Assembly (NCBI RefSeq): GCF_016741875.1
Contig: NZ_JAERRF010000003.1
Location: forward strand, 1-64,000
Length of the DNA: 64,000 nt
Reading direction: 5' to 3'
Source: Streptomyces coffeae
Lineage (GTDB): Bacteria > Actinomycetota > Actinomycetes > Streptomycetales > Streptomycetaceae
Every line of letters begins with the position of its first letter. The first letter of the stretch is position 1. Below, one piece after another: positions 34,369 to 41,396 of the stretch. A program made the position numbers and the translations under genes. Under the pieces are notes generated by a model. That model searched no databases and was not told the origin of the DNA. It worked only from the letters and a program-made list of their open reading frames with translations.

Positions 34369-34861
34369 GTCCCGTCCTCCCGCCTCCCGGCCTTGGATGC
34401 GCCGCGCCCCCGGGCGACTGCTTCGCGCACTTAGCGTAGCGGCACGAACACGGGCCGCGCTGCGGTTCGGCGAAGCCGTCGATGTGACTGTGCCTCACAT
34501 ACCCCTGCGTCCGCGGACCCGGATGTATCACTCGTCCGTGCCGGGCGTCGCACCGGCGGACCGCGCCCGTGATCCCTCCGGCCCCGGACGCCGAACCGTC
34601 CGGCCCCGCCCCGAACTCCCCTCCTCCGGCTCCTCTGGCCGCCCGCCTCCGCCTTTCCTTATAAGGAGGCACCGGAGCTCCACACTGCTCCAAATGCCGC
34701 TTCTCCCGGTATCGATTGCGGGAATCACGGGGAACACGCGCCACAGAAGTCGCACTATGCCGGACGGGTGAAGCTGAGTGGTGAGCCGAAGCCTTAACTG
34801 ATGAGCTTCGTTGTGTCAGACGTCCGTGAATTCGCGGAGCAACCCCAGACGGAGGAATTAA
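34369..34861. promoter_or_regulatory. Long upstream region of the first secreted paralog
   Basis: This 493-bp region separates divergent genes. It contains the 12-bp palindrome TCCTTATAAGGA (34656-34667) and, close to the downstream gene, GGAGGAATTAA before the GTG start. The sequence GGAGGCACC at 34665-34673 recurs upstream of the third paralog at 36196. No gene was accepted. A promoter for the secreted protein is expected here. Confidence 0.4.
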
Positions 34862-35221
34862 GTGAACATCGGCAAGAAGGCAATTCTCCTGACCGCTGCT
34901 GCCGGCGCCCTGGTCATCGGCGGTGCGGGCGGTGCCATGGCCCACAACGGCGACTCTGTCACTCAGAGCAACAAGTGCGACACGAGCACCGGCCTCGAGG
35001 CCGCGGGCGGTCTCGACCTTGCTCCCACGGGCGACATCAACATCGGCTCCGACTGCATCAACTTCACCAACGCCGGCGGGTCGGTTACCCAGAGCAACGA
35101 CTGCGACACGAGCACGGCGCTCGACATCGGCGGCGGCGCGGACCTGGCTCCCGAGGGTGACACCAACATCGGCAGCAAGTGCGCCAACATCGCCATCGAC
35201 GACGACTCGACCCGTCACTGA
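34862..35221 (+). CDS. Secreted paired-cysteine QSN-repeat protein A
   Basis: A 119-residue exported protein. The signal peptide is typical (Lys-rich start, hydrophobic TAAAGALVIGGAGGA, cleavage near AMA). The mature part has two repeats of about 42 residues, each beginning VTQSN-x-CDTST and ending IGS-x-C-x-N, with a Gly/Asp/Leu-rich middle (LDLAPTGDINIG / ADLAPEGDTNIG). There are four Cys, two per repeat, so one disulfide per repeat is likely. It starts at GTG 34862 with GGAGG. Two further paralogs follow on the same strand. No known domain was recognised. A spore- or hypha-surface structural role is a guess. Confidence 0.85.
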   Translation: MNIGKKAILLTAAAGALVIGGAGGAMAHNGDSVTQSNKCDTSTGLEAAGGLDLAPTGDINIGSDCINFTNAGGSVTQSNDCDTSTALDIGGGADLAPEGDTNIGSKCANIAIDDDSTRH

Positions 35222-35235
35222 GTCGTTGACCATCT

Positions 35236-35267
35236 CGCAGTGTTCCCGCCCCCGCGGGAACACTGCG
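35236..35267 (+). terminator. Terminator after paralog A
   Basis: CGCAGTGTTCCCGC pairs perfectly over 14 bp with GCGGGAACACTGCG around a CCCC loop, 15 bp after the stop codon. Confidence 0.8.
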
Positions 35268-35286
35268 GGGTACCCCGTTGGGATCT

Positions 35287-35317
35287 GCGGCCCTGGAAAC
35301 TCCCCTTCCAGGGCCGC
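35287..35317 (+). terminator. Second hairpin after paralog A
   Basis: GCGGCCCTGGAA pairs with TTCCAGGGCCGC over 12 bp, loop ACTCCCC. The CCCTGGAA/TTCCAGGG core is the same as in the hairpin after paralog C. Confidence 0.65.
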
Positions 35318-35400
35318 TGCCACGTAAATGGCTTTCAGCGACCGCCGTCGTTTGTCGGATGTTCGCTGAGATCAGCCAAGAATCCACTCGGAGGCTCTTT

Positions 35401-35931
35401 ATGCACATGCGCAAGAGGACGGCACTTCTTGTAGCGGCCATGGGGGTGCTGCTCATCGGCGGCGCGGGGGGAGCCGATGCTGCCGACGACAGCGCCGCCC
35501 ACCGCGCCGCCCCCAACGGCGGAGGAAGCCAGAAGAACCGCTGTGACACGAGTTCCGTCATCGGCGGGGTCACGCTGGCGACGTCGGACATCACGACCGA
35601 GACCAATTGTGTCAACTACAGCGAGTCCGGCGTCTCCGAGCAGAGCAATCACTGCCGGACCCACTCCGTCATCGGCCCCGTTACGGTCAACCTGACCGGA
35701 TCCGATGTCACACAGCGGACCAATTGCGTCAACGTCAGTAAGTCGGGTGGCGTGACCAAGCAGTCCAACGACTGCAAGACGACCTCGGTCCTCGGCCCGA
35801 TCACGATCGGAGCCGGAGAGGTCACCCAAGAGACGAACTGCACCAACCTCGCCGGGACCGACTCCGCGAACGGGAAAGCCAAGCACAAGGCGAGCACCGC
35901 GAAGACGGCGGGCGGCACACAGAGCCGTTGA
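35401..35931 (+). CDS. Secreted paired-cysteine repeat protein B
   Basis: A 176-residue exported protein. ATG 35401 has CGGAGG 6 nt upstream. The signal peptide reads MHMRKRTALLVAAMGVLLIG with cleavage near ADA. The mature protein has three units built on QxNxCxTxSVxG(P)VT or similar, followed by T-x-TNCVN: NRCDTSSVIGGVTL, QSNHCRTHSVIGPVTV, QSNDCKTTSVLGPITI, and TETNCVN, TQRTNCVN and TQETNCTN. Six Cys, two per unit. The Lys/Ala/Thr-rich tail ends AGGTQSR. Homology with paralog A and C is clear from the QSN-C pattern. The alternating beta-prone pattern suggests a disulfide-braced beta-solenoid. Function unknown. Confidence 0.85.
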   Translation: MHMRKRTALLVAAMGVLLIGGAGGADAADDSAAHRAAPNGGGSQKNRCDTSSVIGGVTLATSDITTETNCVNYSESGVSEQSNHCRTHSVIGPVTVNLTGSDVTQRTNCVNVSKSGGVTKQSNDCKTTSVLGPITIGAGEVTQETNCTNLAGTDSANGKAKHKASTAKTAGGTQSR

Positions 35932-35987
35932 CAGAGAAGCCCTCGGCCCTCTCCGGTCCTCGCTTCTTCGGATCTGCCTTCTCGTCA

Positions 35988-36031
35988 TGAACGCGACCTC
36001 CGGGATTACTTTGTCCCGGGGGTCGCGTTCA
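35988..36031 (+). terminator. Terminator after paralog B
   Basis: TGAACGCGACCTCCGGGA pairs with TCCCGGGGGTCGCGTTCA, an 18-bp stem with one G-U pair and an 8-nt loop. Confidence 0.75.
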
Positions 36032-36210
36032 CGCATTTCTGCGCAGGAAACGGGAAATGTGAATTTCCATGGCCTCCATCGACTGAATATACCTTTACTG
36101 TGGCGCATGGGTGACGCTCCCCTATACCCCGGATCCTATTGCGTGGAAACCTCGTTGATCAGGTGTCTGCGGATCATTCGCGGAGAACCTGATATGGAGG
36201 CACCAGCACA

Positions 36211-36729
36211 ATGCAGATCAGCAAGAAGGTAGCTCTCATGGCCGCGGCGGCCGCGGGCACGATTGTCGTCGGTGGCGCAGGTAGCGCGAGTGCGTACGGT
36301 CCGTTCCCGCACCACGACGGGGTCACCCAGTCGAACAAGTGCGACACCAACATCGGCCCCGATGTCGATCTCGACCTGCTCGAGAGCAGCGGGGACTTCG
36401 ACCCCAACGCGGACTGTGTCAACTTCACCAACCGCCACAACGTGTCGCAGAGCAACGACTGCGATTCCAACATCGGCCCCGAGGTCAGCCTCCCCGAGCT
36501 CGCCCCGAACGGCGACGTCGACCTCGGCCCCAACTGCGCCAACATCGCGGTCGAGCCCCCGGTGGAGCACAAGGAAAAGAAGCACCACAAGGACAAGAAG
36601 CACCACAAGACCAAGGACCACAAGAGCAAGAAGGACCACAAGACCAAGAAGGACTGCAAGGGCAAGAAGCACGTCAAGGGCAAGGTCACGGTCAAGTCCA
36701 AGGTCAAGAACCACAAGGTCAAGCACTGA
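36211..36729 (+). CDS. Secreted paired-cysteine QSN-repeat protein C with Lys/His tail
   Basis: A 172-residue exported protein. ATG 36211 has TGGAGG about 10 nt upstream. The signal peptide ends near SASA. Two repeats match those of protein A: VTQSNKCDTNIGPDVDLDLL to DCVNFTN, and VSQSNDCDSNIGPEVSLPEL to NCANIAV. The last 60 residues form a highly basic Lys/His tail (KKHHKDKKHHK and similar) with one extra Cys, able to bind metals, polyanions or teichoic-type polymers. This tail is absent from A and B, so the paralogs may differ in partner. It is followed by a strong hairpin and converges on a beta-helix protein gene. Confidence 0.85.
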   Translation: MQISKKVALMAAAAAGTIVVGGAGSASAYGPFPHHDGVTQSNKCDTNIGPDVDLDLLESSGDFDPNADCVNFTNRHNVSQSNDCDSNIGPEVSLPELAPNGDVDLGPNCANIAVEPPVEHKEKKHHKDKKHHKTKDHKSKKDHKTKKDCKGKKHVKGKVTVKSKVKNHKVKH

Positions 36730-36755
36730 CCTTCCGCTCTCCCCTCGAGCGCACC

Positions 36756-36786
36756 GCGACCCTGGAAGCATCGCTTCCAGGGTCGC
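36756..36786 (+). terminator. Terminator after paralog C
   Basis: GCGACCCTGGAAGC pairs perfectly over 14 bp with GCTTCCAGGGTCGC across an ATC loop. It shares its CCCTGGAA/TTCCAGGG core with the hairpin at 35287-35317, which suggests gene and terminator were duplicated together. Confidence 0.8.
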
Positions 36787-36832
36787 CTGGGCTTTCGGGG
36801 GACTTTCCTGTGGGTCAGGTCGTGGCCGTGGG

Positions 36833-37951
36833 TCAGGTCGTGCACGTACCGATGGACGGCTGGCAGTTCGCGGGGTTGTTGCCGGTCACGGTGGTCGCGT
36901 TGAGCGTCACCGTACCGCCGTCGACGAAGATGCCACCGCCGTTGTTGCCCGGGCCGCCATTGGCCGTGTTCCCCGTGATGGAGTCCCCGGTCAGCTGGGC
37001 GGAACCCGCGTGATTGAACAGCCCGCCACCGTTCAGGGTGGCGGTGTTGTTGGACACCGTGGTGCCCAACACGTTCAGCGTGCTGCCGAGATTGGCGATT
37101 CCACCGCCGAAGCTCCCGGCGGTGTTCTGCTGAATCGTGCTCCCGCTGATGGTGAGGGGACCAGCATCAGTGGCGATTCCGCCGCCTTCGAAGTTGGTCG
37201 TCCGGTTTCTCTTCACAGCGACACTGCTGATCAGCGTCTGGCCGTAGTTCGCGACACCGCCACCGGTGTTCACCGCGGTGTTGTCGGAAATGTTTCCGCT
37301 GGCGATAGTGGCGTTGGCCTGGGTATTGATGTGAATACCGCCGCCGTCTCCGCCCGTATTGTGCGTCACATCCGTGGCCGAGAGTCTCGCGATGGCACCC
37401 GAGGCGACTTCGATACCTCCGCCGAGACCGCTCGCGGTGCTACCGGTGATGGTCGCCCGGTTCGTCGTCAGCCTGCCGAGGTCGAGGATGCCTCCGCCGT
37501 CCGCGGTGCCTCCCGCGTCGGCACGGCCGTTGGCCAGCGTGATGCCGCTGACGGTGAGGCTGCCCCCGGCGGCCACCTCGGCGATACGGAAGTCCGGAGC
37601 CGACGCGCTGCGCCGGATGGTCGCCCCGAGGCCGGTGATGGTCACGTCCCCGGTGATGATGGGCAGTCCGTCGGGGCCGTTGGCACCGGTCGTGGCCGCG
37701 GACGTCAGCGTGTACACGCACCCCGTGGCCAGGGTGACGGTGCCGCCCGACGGCTGGTTGTTGGCGGCGGTCACCGCGGCGACCAGCGCCGCCACGTCCC
37801 CACAGGAGACGGGGACCTGACTCGATCCGTTGCCGCCTCCCCCTCCCCCACCCCGGTTCTCCTCGGCGGAGGCGGGGACGGAAAGCGCCCACGCCGATAC
37901 CGCCAGTGCGATGACGGGGATGAAACCGCGGGTCGTTGTCACGAGTCGCAC
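36833..37951 (-). CDS. Secreted right-handed parallel beta-helix protein
   Basis: A 372-residue exported protein. GTG 37951 follows GGAG at 7 nt and gives a signal peptide (FIPVIALAVSAWALSVPASA). After a poly-Gly linker come many short imperfect repeats of pectate-lyase-like (PbH1) type: TVSNNTATLNGGGLFN, TIQQNTAGSFGGGIAN, NISDNTAVNTGGGVAN. Each turn has Asn ladders and a Gly-Gly-Gly-hydrophobic step. Proteins of this kind are cell-surface or secreted and often lack enzyme activity. It ends with CQPSIGTC. The gene converges on paralog C, and both encode exported repeat proteins. Confidence 0.88.
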   Translation of the reverse strand: MRLVTTTRGFIPVIALAVSAWALSVPASAEENRGGGGGGGNGSSQVPVSCGDVAALVAAVTAANNQPSGGTVTLATGCVYTLTSAATTGANGPDGLPIITGDVTITGLGATIRRSASAPDFRIAEVAAGGSLTVSGITLANGRADAGGTADGGGILDLGRLTTNRATITGSTASGLGGGIEVASGAIARLSATDVTHNTGGDGGGIHINTQANATIASGNISDNTAVNTGGGVANYGQTLISSVAVKRNRTTNFEGGGIATDAGPLTISGSTIQQNTAGSFGGGIANLGSTLNVLGTTVSNNTATLNGGGLFNHAGSAQLTGDSITGNTANGGPGNNGGGIFVDGGTVTLNATTVTGNNPANCQPSIGTCTT

Positions 37952-38329
37952 GAGGTGTCTCCTTTAAGCGTTCCGAGCAAGCCGAGCAAGCAGAGATCAG
38001 CAGCATCAGACTGTGGGGAGGCACCGCGTTCGGCATCCGCGCGGACGCGGGACGAGCGGTCACGACCTGCGGTAACGGCGGGCCCACGGGCCCGGAGCGG
38101 CCATCGGGAGCCTGTCCGCCTCTCCTGTGAAGTGCGACAAAACCGCAGGTCACTGGCTAGATCTCAGGACCTTCCGGATGGATCGTCAGATGTCCGGAAC
38201 GACCTTCAGAAATTCGCACGTCCGCGATAGGCCGATCGTGGGGGCACCAGGGAACATTCCGTCAGTTGTGCGCTCTTGGCGGGGGGATGGTCGCGCGAGG
38301 AGGCCAAGGAGGCGTACGGCGGGGCGTCT
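37952..38329. other. Gap upstream of beta-helix gene
   Basis: This 378-bp region carries the promoter of the minus-strand beta-helix gene. CCGAGCAAG occurs twice in tandem near 37974-37990. No coding frame was accepted. AAAGGAG near 37960 is the ribosome-binding site. Confidence 0.4.
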
Positions 38330-38626
38330 TCAGCGGGGCTGATCGCCGTGGGGCTGAGCGCCGTGGGTCTGCACGTCGTGGGTCTGCTCGTCGCTCCGGG
38401 ACGAGGCACGGGCCATGATCCGCTTCAGTGCCTCGTTGGCCGTCAGATCCGTCAGCCCCTCCGTGAGGGGCAGATGTGTGGGACAGAACCACTCGGCGTT
38501 CTCCGGATGACCGGCCCAGTCGTCGGGGTACTCCACGGTCGGGCGGAAATACACCACGTCGAATCCGCCCCAACGGGTGCTGTCGCGCTCCGGCCGCGAC
38601 CGGCACACCGCGCAGATCGGTGGCAT
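38330..38626 (-). CDS. Small hypothetical protein with CxxC and Cys-His motifs
   Basis: A 98-residue protein starting MPPICAVCRSRPERDSTRWG (zinc-ribbon-like C-x2-C) followed by VVYFRPTVEYPDDWAGHPEN and WFCPTHLPLTEGL (Cys-x2-His), so a small zinc-binding protein is plausible. The C-terminus is polar and His/Gln-rich. The start is taken at ATG 38626; no strong Shine-Dalgarno is visible. Third-position G/C supports coding. The family was not recognised. Confidence 0.6.
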   Translation of the reverse strand: MPPICAVCRSRPERDSTRWGGFDVVYFRPTVEYPDDWAGHPENAEWFCPTHLPLTEGLTDLTANEALKRIMARASSRSDEQTHDVQTHGAQPHGDQPR

Positions 38627-38720
38627 CACGGCTCGGCCCCCTGCTTCTGTCTCCGCCCTCGGCACGGTGCCGGGCACGGCTGAAGCCCGCGCCGGAATAC
38701 TCCGGCACGGGCCTCGTCAG

Positions 38721-38926: not shown

Positions 38927-41095
38927 TCAGCCGTTGCGCTTCCAGCGCGGCTTGTCGGCGCGGCGGTCGAACGACCGGCTGCCGGTGCCGCCGCGGTGAT
39001 CGTCACGGCGCGCCGGGCGCTCGTCACGGCGGTCCCGGTTGAACGGACGGTCCCCGCCGCGGTGGGCGTGGTCCCGGCGCTCGAAGGGACGGCCCGGACG
39101 GTCGTCACGGCGGTCGTCGCGCCGGTTGAAGCCACCCCGGTCGTCACGGCGCTCGAAGGAGCGGCCACCACGGTCGTCACGGCGGTTGAAACCGCCACGC
39201 TCGTCACGGCGGTCCCGGCCGAAGCCGCCACGGTCGTCACGCCGCTCGAAGGACCGGCCACCACGCTCGTCACGCCGCTCGAAGGACCGGCCACCACGGT
39301 CGTCACGGCGGTCCCGGCCGAAACCACGGTCGCCCCGGTCGCCACGGTCGTCACGGCGGTTGAAGCCACCGCGGTCGTCGCGCCGGTCGCGGCCGAAGCC
39401 GCCACGGTCGTCACGGCGCTCGAAGGACCGGCCACCACGGTCGTCACGGCGGTCCCGGCGCTCGAAGTTGCCCCGGTCGTCACGGCGGTCGTACGAGGGC
39501 CGGCGCGGCGTGTCGTCCGCACCGGCGGCCTCGGCGGCCGGGACGGTCACGGGCTCGGCCGTGCGCTGCGCCGGAACCGTCGCGGTGACCTCCACGGCCT
39601 CTCCAGCCGACTGAGCTGTCTCAGCCGCCTCGGCTGTCTCGGCGCCGGCCGTGGCCGCGGGGGCGACGGTCTCGCCGCGTTCGCGTGCCGCGCGCGCGGC
39701 CAGCCGGTCGGCGTCCTCGCGCAGCTCGGCCGCCCGCCGCTGGACCCGCTCCAGCTGCCGGGTGAGGTCCTGGACCTCGCGCTCGGCCTGCTTGGCGGAG
39801 TTCGCGGCCGCTTCGGCCTGCACCTCGGTGAGCGAGCGGGCGCCGGTGATCCGGGCCACGTCCTCGTCGAAAGCGCCCGCCCCGCCCACGATGTGGCGGG
39901 AGGCGTCCACGCCCGCGTCCTCCATCAGCCGGAAGATCTGGCGGCGCTGGTGCGGCAGGGCGAGCGACACGACCGTGCCGCTCTGGCCCGCGCGGGCCGT
40001 ACGGCCGGAGCGGTGGAGATAGTCCTTGTGGTCACCGGCCGGGTCCACGTTCAGCACCAGGTCGATGCCGTCCACGTGGATGCCTCGCGCGGCCACGTCG
40101 GTCGCGACGAGGACGTTGACGTACCCGTCCTTGAAGTCGGCCAGGGTGCGGGTGCGGGCGCCCTGGGTCATACCGCCGTGCAGCGCGTCGGCTCGTACGC
40201 CCGCGTCGCACAGCTGCTCGGCGACGCGGTCGGCGCCGAGCTGGGTCCGGACGAAGATGATGGTGCGGCCCTTGCGCGCGGCGATGGCGGCGGTGACCGG
40301 GGCCTTGTCCTTCGGCTTCACCACCAGCACGTGGTGGGTCATGGTCGAGACGGCGCCCGCGGACGGGTCGACCTCGTGGGTGATCGGGTTGACCAGGTAG
40401 CGCTTGACCAGCGTGTCGATCTCGTTCTCGAGCGTCGCGGAGAACAGCAGCCGCTGGCCGCCCTGGGGCACCAGGTCGAGGATCTCGGTGACCTCGGGCA
40501 GGAAGCCCATGTCGGCCATCTGGTCGGCCTCGTCGAGAACCGCGACCTGGATCTTGTCGAGAGAGGCGGCGCCGCGGTCGATGATGTCGCGCAGTCGGCC
40601 CGGGGTGGCGACGAGGATGTCGACACCGCGCTCCAGCGCGGTGATCTGATTGCCCATCGAGGTGCCGCCGCAGACGACCTTGAGCCGGAGGCCGAGGACA
40701 TCGCCGTACGGCTGGAGCGCGTCGCTCACCTGCATCGCGAGCTCGCGCGTGGGGGTGAGGATCAGACCGCGCGGGCGCTTCTTCTCGGTGTGGCCGCCGG
40801 CCAGCGTGGTCAGCAGCGGAAGGCCGAAGGAGAGGGTCTTGCCGGAGCCGGTACGGCCGCGGCCGAGGATGTCGCTTCCGGCCATGGCGTCGGGGATGGT
40901 CGCGGCCTGGATCGGGAAGGGCGTGGTCACACCGTTCTGGGCCAGCTTGCGGACGATCTGCTCGGGGAGCCCGAGGTCGGCGAAGGTGATGTCGGGGGTC
41001 TTCTCGTCCTGCGGCTGGTCCTGCTCGGCCTGGACGGGCTGCTCGGGCTGCTCGTCGTGGGCAGGCATGACGGCGTGATCAGTGGAAACGGACAT
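38927..41095 (-). CDS. DEAD-box RNA helicase with Asp-Arg-rich tail
   Basis: A 722-residue ATP-dependent RNA helicase. The core shows the Q motif (PFPIQAATIPDA), motif I GRGRTGSGKT, Ia PTRELAMQVSD, Ib TPGRLRD, DEAD box as VLDEADQM, SAT motif FSATLEN, VATDVAARGIHV and HRSGRTARAGQSG. The final 230 residues are low complexity, many copies of RRDDRGGF, an arginine-rich RNA-binding tail similar to cold-shock helicases (CsdA/RhlE-like). Roles in ribosome assembly or mRNA unfolding are likely. ATG 41095 is chosen; GGAAGG lies 13 nt upstream. The tail DNA is tandemly repeated and could vary in copy number. Confidence 0.93.
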   Translation of the reverse strand: MSVSTDHAVMPAHDEQPEQPVQAEQDQPQDEKTPDITFADLGLPEQIVRKLAQNGVTTPFPIQAATIPDAMAGSDILGRGRTGSGKTLSFGLPLLTTLAGGHTEKKRPRGLILTPTRELAMQVSDALQPYGDVLGLRLKVVCGGTSMGNQITALERGVDILVATPGRLRDIIDRGAASLDKIQVAVLDEADQMADMGFLPEVTEILDLVPQGGQRLLFSATLENEIDTLVKRYLVNPITHEVDPSAGAVSTMTHHVLVVKPKDKAPVTAAIAARKGRTIIFVRTQLGADRVAEQLCDAGVRADALHGGMTQGARTRTLADFKDGYVNVLVATDVAARGIHVDGIDLVLNVDPAGDHKDYLHRSGRTARAGQSGTVVSLALPHQRRQIFRLMEDAGVDASRHIVGGAGAFDEDVARITGARSLTEVQAEAAANSAKQAEREVQDLTRQLERVQRRAAELREDADRLAARAARERGETVAPAATAGAETAEAAETAQSAGEAVEVTATVPAQRTAEPVTVPAAEAAGADDTPRRPSYDRRDDRGNFERRDRRDDRGGRSFERRDDRGGFGRDRRDDRGGFNRRDDRGDRGDRGFGRDRRDDRGGRSFERRDERGGRSFERRDDRGGFGRDRRDERGGFNRRDDRGGRSFERRDDRGGFNRRDDRRDDRPGRPFERRDHAHRGGDRPFNRDRRDERPARRDDHRGGTGSRSFDRRADKPRWKRNG
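38990..39500 (-). repeat. Tandem repeats encoding Asp-Asp-Arg-Gly units
   Basis: About 500 bp of the helicase 3-prime end is built from degenerate units such as CGGTCGTCACGGCGGTC on the plus strand, in phase with the reading frame and encoding RRDDRGG-type units. It is a coding repeat, not CRISPR, because the units are degenerate and lack spacers. Confidence 0.75.
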
Positions 41096-41396
41096 GCGAA
41101 ATGCGAAACCTTCCGGAGTCTCGGCACGCGCCCAAACTCCGTGTGAGTCGCAAACAACCGCCTCTATGCGGTCAGCCACAGGATGGGAAGGAACGCGCCT
41201 CGCGGCGCACTTCAATGAGGCGCCGGGCAAATGGGATCAAACGATCTACCACCATACGCACTCCCACCCCTCAAGAGCAAATTCGCTCCACCTGTGATCG
41301 ATCTGCCCTCCACCGCCCATCATGTGTGCTCTGCACCGGATCCCCAGGGCCGCTCCGGTGCTCCAGCGGCGCGGGCCCGGCCCAGGGCCCACCGGA
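41096..41396. other. Helicase upstream region
   Basis: A 301-bp region upstream of the DEAD-box gene. It is A/T-richer around 41225-41300, consistent with a promoter and a long 5-prime leader. Cold-shock helicase genes often have such leaders. No gene was seen. Confidence 0.4.

Follow-up and report, generated by a model that had tools for sequence, protein, structure and literature searches.

In Streptomyces, aerial hyphae and spores are usually covered by a layer of chaplins and rodlins, yet one clade, made up of antibiotic producers with large genomes, lacks rodlins, has few chaplin domains and is still known for distinctively ornamented spores. The question raised by a 64,000-nucleotide stretch of Streptomyces coffeae DNA (the window) is whether three tandem genes for small cysteine-paired proteins could contribute to such a surface. 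Gene A (34862..35221, + strand, GTG start) encodes 119 residues with two repeat units, gene B (35401..35931, +) encodes 176 residues with three units, and gene C (36211..36729, +) encodes 172 residues with two units and a Lys/His-rich tail; the translations agree with the earlier note on these lengths and on the cysteines of the mature parts, which number four in A, six in B and four plus one in C. Each product has a Sec-type N-terminus, read by eye, and is predicted to be secreted, as had been claimed. The tail of C spans 58 residues with a pI of 10.2, and its 24 Lys plus Arg (with 10 His, left out of the charge) give it a net charge of +17; Lys-rich tails also end the C orthologues that were read, in shorter form in S. 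milbemycinicus and S. sparsogenes. The mature part of A has an acidic pI of 4.1, as does the core of C, and the three mature proteins are hydrophilic (GRAVY -0.44, -0.58 and -1.27). The feature extends past the span of the genes themselves (34862-36729), with promoter elements from 34756 and a lineage-specific island from about 34477 to 38711.

The family can be defined as Streptomyces proteins built of units of approximately 39 residues with the pattern Q-x-N-x-C-x-T...C-x-N, based on 118 distinct units from the window and its relatives. Although the pattern used to collect units allowed Q, E or K and N, K or T at the first two conserved positions, and fixed only C and C-x-N, Q is present four residues before the first cysteine and N two residues before it in 118 of 118 units; T follows two residues past the first cysteine in 104 of 118, and the positions between the conserved ones are variable. 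The QSN motif of the earlier note is thereby narrowed to its invariant Q and N, its middle residue being variable, while the pairing of cysteines within units extends to all 118, with C and C-x-N fixed by the pattern. The spacing between the two cysteines is 20-26 residues in 114 units, and 16, 16, 17 and 19 residues in the other four. Conserved residues that alternate (Q-x-N-x-C-x-T) make a pattern as in a beta strand, and indicate nothing beyond that. AlphaFold2 models were all-beta at low confidence for A (pLDDT 42.7, 13 sequences) and for mature B (pLDDT 53.9, pTM 0.37, 6 sequences), and in both of these low-confidence models every unit cysteine lies within a predicted strand; the models speak neither for nor against the disulfide-braced beta-solenoid proposed in the earlier note. 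Short repeats with alternating conserved Gln and Asn are also found in curli-type and other functional amyloids, although cysteine pairs, present in the family units, are not a known feature of curli. The S. coffeae genome contains six family genes; those beyond A, B and C are on other contigs and consist of a D-type gene with two units (C231) and two genes with a single unit each (C78, at L005 1444-1941 and L007 1432), one of which has a Gln/His-rich DEHRQ repeat tail. Three other loci (L014, L030, L036) carry tandem one-unit E-type genes that end directly after C-x-N, in two or three adjacent copies with near-identical leaders.

No described family accounts for these proteins, and the earlier note had recognised none: A, B and C have no meaningful Pfam match and no NCBIfam match, with neither the chaplin domain PF03777 nor rodlin_AB (NF041022) found in the respective scans, and nothing matched when paralogues of the D and E types and a pair of distant orthologues were scanned. 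A sequence search of the PDB with A returned a nanobody at E 0.15 as its sole result, A had no match among plasmids and B none among phages, and literature searches, which had most subscription journals outside their scope, found no description of the family. The profile search proposed earlier was carried out over 392 Streptomyces genomes and 296 genomes of the class, and membership appears confined to Streptomyces. In the class-wide search, 14 of 296 genomes matched at E up to 0.01, and the nine that are not Streptomyces were set aside, since their proteins look unrelated and seem to have been hit by way of the signal peptide. Profile A2 (13 family members) matched 45 of the 392 Streptomyces genomes at E up to 0.001, 11 of them with strong matches that included A, B and C and 34 with weak matches alone.

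The genes occur in the order A-B-C in these 11 of 392 sampled genomes (S. himastatinicus, L010, and G180 being counted once) and also in S. hygroscopicus NBRC 13472, Streptomyces sp. NEAU-Y11, S. milbemycinicus and S. sparsogenes, so that the order is kept in all 15 genomes with strong matches; in S. sparsogenes (L013) one copy of C has its start out of frame with its units. A further search of 199 relatives found four genomes, all Streptomyces and all already within the 11. In a midpoint-rooted PurL tree of 30 genomes, the 11 group together (support 100/98) and are joined first by G058 (99/97) and then by G149 (100/99). The S. violaceusniger clade is known for rugose ornamented spores, and S. 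milbemycinicus and S. sparsogenes (printed as S. sporogenes) are close to it, according to portions of PMC8137480 and PMC8407293; the 15 cluster genomes lie in or beside this rugose-spored clade. The source on these relatives also names six clades, highly related to one another, with spores that are rugose or rough, so presence of the family and ornamentation may not match one to one.

Within the window, A, B and C belong to a lineage-specific island (34477..38711; blastn against L167, tblastn over 15 loci) between a DUF6227 gene and a gene named helicase-like from its sequence. By blastn, these flanks are approximately 550 bp apart in the sister genome G058 versus 4.2 kb apart in the window. 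The island also contains a gene for a secreted beta-helix-like protein (36833..37951, - strand, convergent with C; repeats read by eye, no Pfam match), which tblastn found in 14 of the 14 loci that are long enough, the S. milbemycinicus contig being the one of 15 that ends too early. A 115-aa frame in the island stretch was matched in only two other loci. In G031, approximately 8.6 kb of other, unaligned DNA lies between the same flanking genes (L168 9038-17622), so the spot may be an insertion hot spot. The helicase-like protein (window 38930-41179, - strand) has a long Arg/Asp/Gly-rich repeat tail with many internal blastn matches.

Alignment of the upstream regions of A and of C revealed conserved blocks in each. 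Among these, TATGCCGGACGGGTGA upstream of A and TGTGGCGGACGGGTGA upstream of C in one orthologue resemble the BldM-WhiI heterodimer site, for which excerpts of PMC4125116 give the consensus TGnnCCGnnCGGGTGA and name whiE (spore pigment) and smeA-sffA among the Group II targets of S. venezuelae. In the window, the Group II-like site of A (TATGCCGGACGGGTGA, 34756..34771, +) has one mismatch to this consensus, that of C (TGTGGCGCATGGGTGA, 36099..36114, +) has two, and B has none. A conserved CGTTG follows as a possible -10 element at 34809..34813 (+) for A and at 36153..36157 (+) for C, and 34 of 56 distinct family upstream regions have CGTT(G/A) at a distance of 50-59 nt from the start; Sigma-BldN, whose -10 element resembles CGTTG, was considered as the sigma factor. 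With a site defined as a match of at most two mismatches to TGnnCCGnnCGGGTGA, 37 of the 56 upstream regions have one on the plus strand that ends 83-98 nt before the start codon: 13 of 14 for A, 13 of 13 for C, 5 of 5 for D, 3 of 15 for B and 2 of 6 for E, together with an extra A-like gene of S. himastatinicus; the E- and F-type genes of S. coffeae have none. Good sites are missing from its one-unit members (C78). When both strands of the full 300 nt were counted, approximately 6% of base-shuffled upstream regions contained a site, and 142 control genes (other genes of the loci fetched, picked by a simple ORF rule) had one within 200 nt in five cases and at 80-100 nt in one. The whole window contains 22 such sites versus 20.0 expected, which is no excess over chance, and promoters of paralogues and orthologues may share the site by descent. 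Downstream, terminator-like hairpins follow A (35291..35313, +; kept with small changes in aligned orthologues) and C (36760..36782, +), and their shared core CCCTGGAA...TTCCAGGG, which the earlier note had pointed out, occurs exactly twice in the window with none expected from shuffles.

Components of the standard layer are absent or few in the genomes with the A-B-C genes. Rodlins were found in 274 of the 392 Streptomyces genomes and in none of the 11 with the cluster; counting the four named genomes as well, they are absent from 15 of 15 cluster genomes, S. coffeae included, and present in 274 of 381 others. Rodlins (NF041022) resemble the family in being small secreted Streptomyces proteins (about 130 aa) encoded by adjacent paralogous genes and in their spore-surface location, which for the family is assumed; they differ in sequence, and among the 15 cluster genomes the two are never in the same genome. 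Chaplin PF03777 domains, counted as domains and not as genes, number three in ten of the 11 cluster genomes, one in the remaining one and three in each of the four named genomes, versus 4-15 in each of 29 genomes hand-picked from the 381 others (13 without rodlins and 16 with). The sister genome G058, which has no island and no rodlin but seven chaplin domains, suggests that loss of rodlins preceded both the reduction of chaplins and the gain of the new family, which would fall on the following branch; co-occurrence within one clade amounts to few independent events. Parts of a 2013 review (PMC4255298) list S. avermitilis, S. griseoflavus and S. hygroscopicus as strains without rodlins and describe S. 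hygroscopicus, entered in its genome list as ATCC 53653, as an exception in having no SapB-type cluster; this clade strain carries the designation of L010, S. himastatinicus.

Taken as a whole, the evidence makes it somewhat probable that A, B and C are late-sporulation spore-envelope proteins that partly replace the rodlin/chaplin layer. The earlier note had proposed a surface or matrix protein for aerial growth or spore coats, and of this the sporulation role is the part favoured by the BldM-WhiI-like sites, the missing rodlins and the few chaplin domains; the binding of polyanions or metals that the note gave to C would be a putative role of its tail. The late spore-envelope reading draws on an A-B-C island that is confined to one clade and absent from its sister genome, on the lack of rodlins and the one to three chaplin domains in all 15 cluster genomes, on Group II-like sites in 37 of 56 family upstream regions versus 1 of 142 controls, on known Group II targets that include whiE and smeA-sffA, on the alternation of invariant Q, N and C, and on the rugose spores for which the clade is known. 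Counting against it are the 107 of 381 other genomes that lack rodlins and have no island, the chance frequency of sites across the window, the upstream regions with no site (12 of 15 for B, 4 of 6 for E and those of E and F in S. coffeae), a beta-helix-like neighbour with no Group II-like site within 200 nt, hydrophilic proteins unlike the hydrophobic sheath proteins, and the low confidence of the structure models. The predicted sequence of events is that BldM-WhiI would turn on the family genes late in sporulation, that Sec would export the A, B and C proteins, and that each unit would form two beta strands with its cysteines oxidised outside the cell; the acidic cores of A and C and the three-unit B would then assemble on the spore surface, where the Lys/His tail of C would fasten the layer either to polyanions of the wall or to these acidic cores, and the A-B-C layer would stand in, in part, for the rodlin/chaplin sheath.

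An alternative that seems improbable is that A, B and C are surface adhesins, or decoys facing phages or predators, whose variable loops are selected on a cysteine scaffold. The variable positions do lie between the invariant Q, N and C, and the median pairwise dN/dS (Nei-Gojobori; 91, 105 and 92 pairs with dS above 0.05 for A, B and C) is 0.71 for A and 0.85 for C, versus 0.44 for B. The loops of A and C converge inside a genome, however, which recombination fits as well as selection does: over 13 genomes, their likeness is 0.634 within a genome versus 0.542 across genomes for unit 1, and 0.688 versus 0.597 for unit 2, with 0 of 5000 permutations as high, in a permutation that is blind to the tree. 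The own A/C partner ranks first in only 4 of 13 genomes, and other unit pairs trend alike. In L104, the unit-1 loop common to A and C is identical in DNA as well, between segments that are 33-67% alike before it and 70-87% alike after it. The likeness within genomes is read here as gene conversion among family members, a reading made from sequence comparison. The earlier suggestion that a gene and its terminator were duplicated together is plausible, but the units of A and C look homogenised within some genomes, so their likeness is no simple record of duplication. Promoter sites that point to spore development also argue against adhesins or decoys.

Slightly harder to credit is that A, B and C are small soluble secreted proteins with no structural role, for example in metal binding, redox chemistry or antimicrobial activity. 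Such functions would suit proteins that are small, cysteine-rich and secreted by their N-termini, one of them with ten histidines in its tail, but they would not be expected from six family genes in one genome, several with a similar promoter layout, and no dedicated maturation or immunity gene was recognised in the ORF lists around the cluster.

It is unlikely, too, that A, B and C are highly diverged chaplins that arose while the chaplin set of the clade shrank. Chaplins (PF03777, ChpA-C) are, like the family, small secreted Streptomyces proteins with two cysteines per unit and C-x-N at the second, and their long forms repeat the unit; a surface role is assumed for the family. The family's G-x-x-C-x-N at the second cysteine is reminiscent of the G-N-x-C-x-N with which chaplins end, and outside the clade the weak profile matches are mostly chaplins: among 19 weak Streptomyces loci read, 13 are chaplins (called by eye, one checked with Pfam), two belong to another family with the pattern QS..CKSHD...MGC.N, and four are neither. 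These weak matches, however, extend mostly across the signal peptide; chaplins have approximately 17-18 residues between cysteines versus 20-26 in the family, whose units are hydrophilic and 38-40 residues long; A, B and C have no PF03777 match; and no intermediate forms were seen among the clade chaplins inspected. Profile-profile comparison (hhalign) of the unit with the chaplin domain gave 0.92% over 6 columns, versus 0.63% and 0.71% for reversed controls, although the family's own reversed profile scored 64%, so that reversal does not give a clean null where units are this repetitive. Homology to chaplins is thus undetectable at the level of sequence, and the family may nevertheless work in a chaplin-like way. 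The QS..CKSHD...MGC.N proteins (L056, L068, L072, L083, L086, L087) are another small secreted Streptomyces family, similar in having Q-S-x-x-C close to the N-terminus and x-N after a second cysteine, and different in having a single unit with approximately 45 residues between cysteines; hhalign gave 5.2% over 11 columns against the family units, and one member scanned has no Pfam or NCBIfam name. Least probable of all, and very unlikely, is that transglutaminase acts on A, B and C and joins the invariant Gln of their units to the Lys-rich tail of C in a covalent coat: the Gln, the 24 Lys plus Arg of the tail and a transglutaminase that, as reported in PMC4255298, builds a protein into the surface of S. 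hygroscopicus aerial hyphae speak for it, the invariant Gln may face inward, and the idea could be compatible with the spore-envelope reading.

Returning to the reading of A, B and C as spore-envelope proteins, the family is new, restricted to one clade, secreted by its N-termini and probably controlled by sporulation. A more ambitious and rather doubtful proposal is that it provides the structural basis of rugose spore ornamentation in the S. violaceusniger clade. After loss of rodlins in an ancestor shared with G058, and as the chaplin set shrank, a coat bearing cysteine, glutamine and asparagine ladders would have taken over, with the tail of C as its wall anchor and possibly as a donor for transglutaminase cross-links. 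Secreted, spread across the clade and preceded by promoter sites of the sporulation type, the family is a concrete candidate for the builder of this clade's spore surface, and gene deletion offers a way to test how rugose ornamentation arose.
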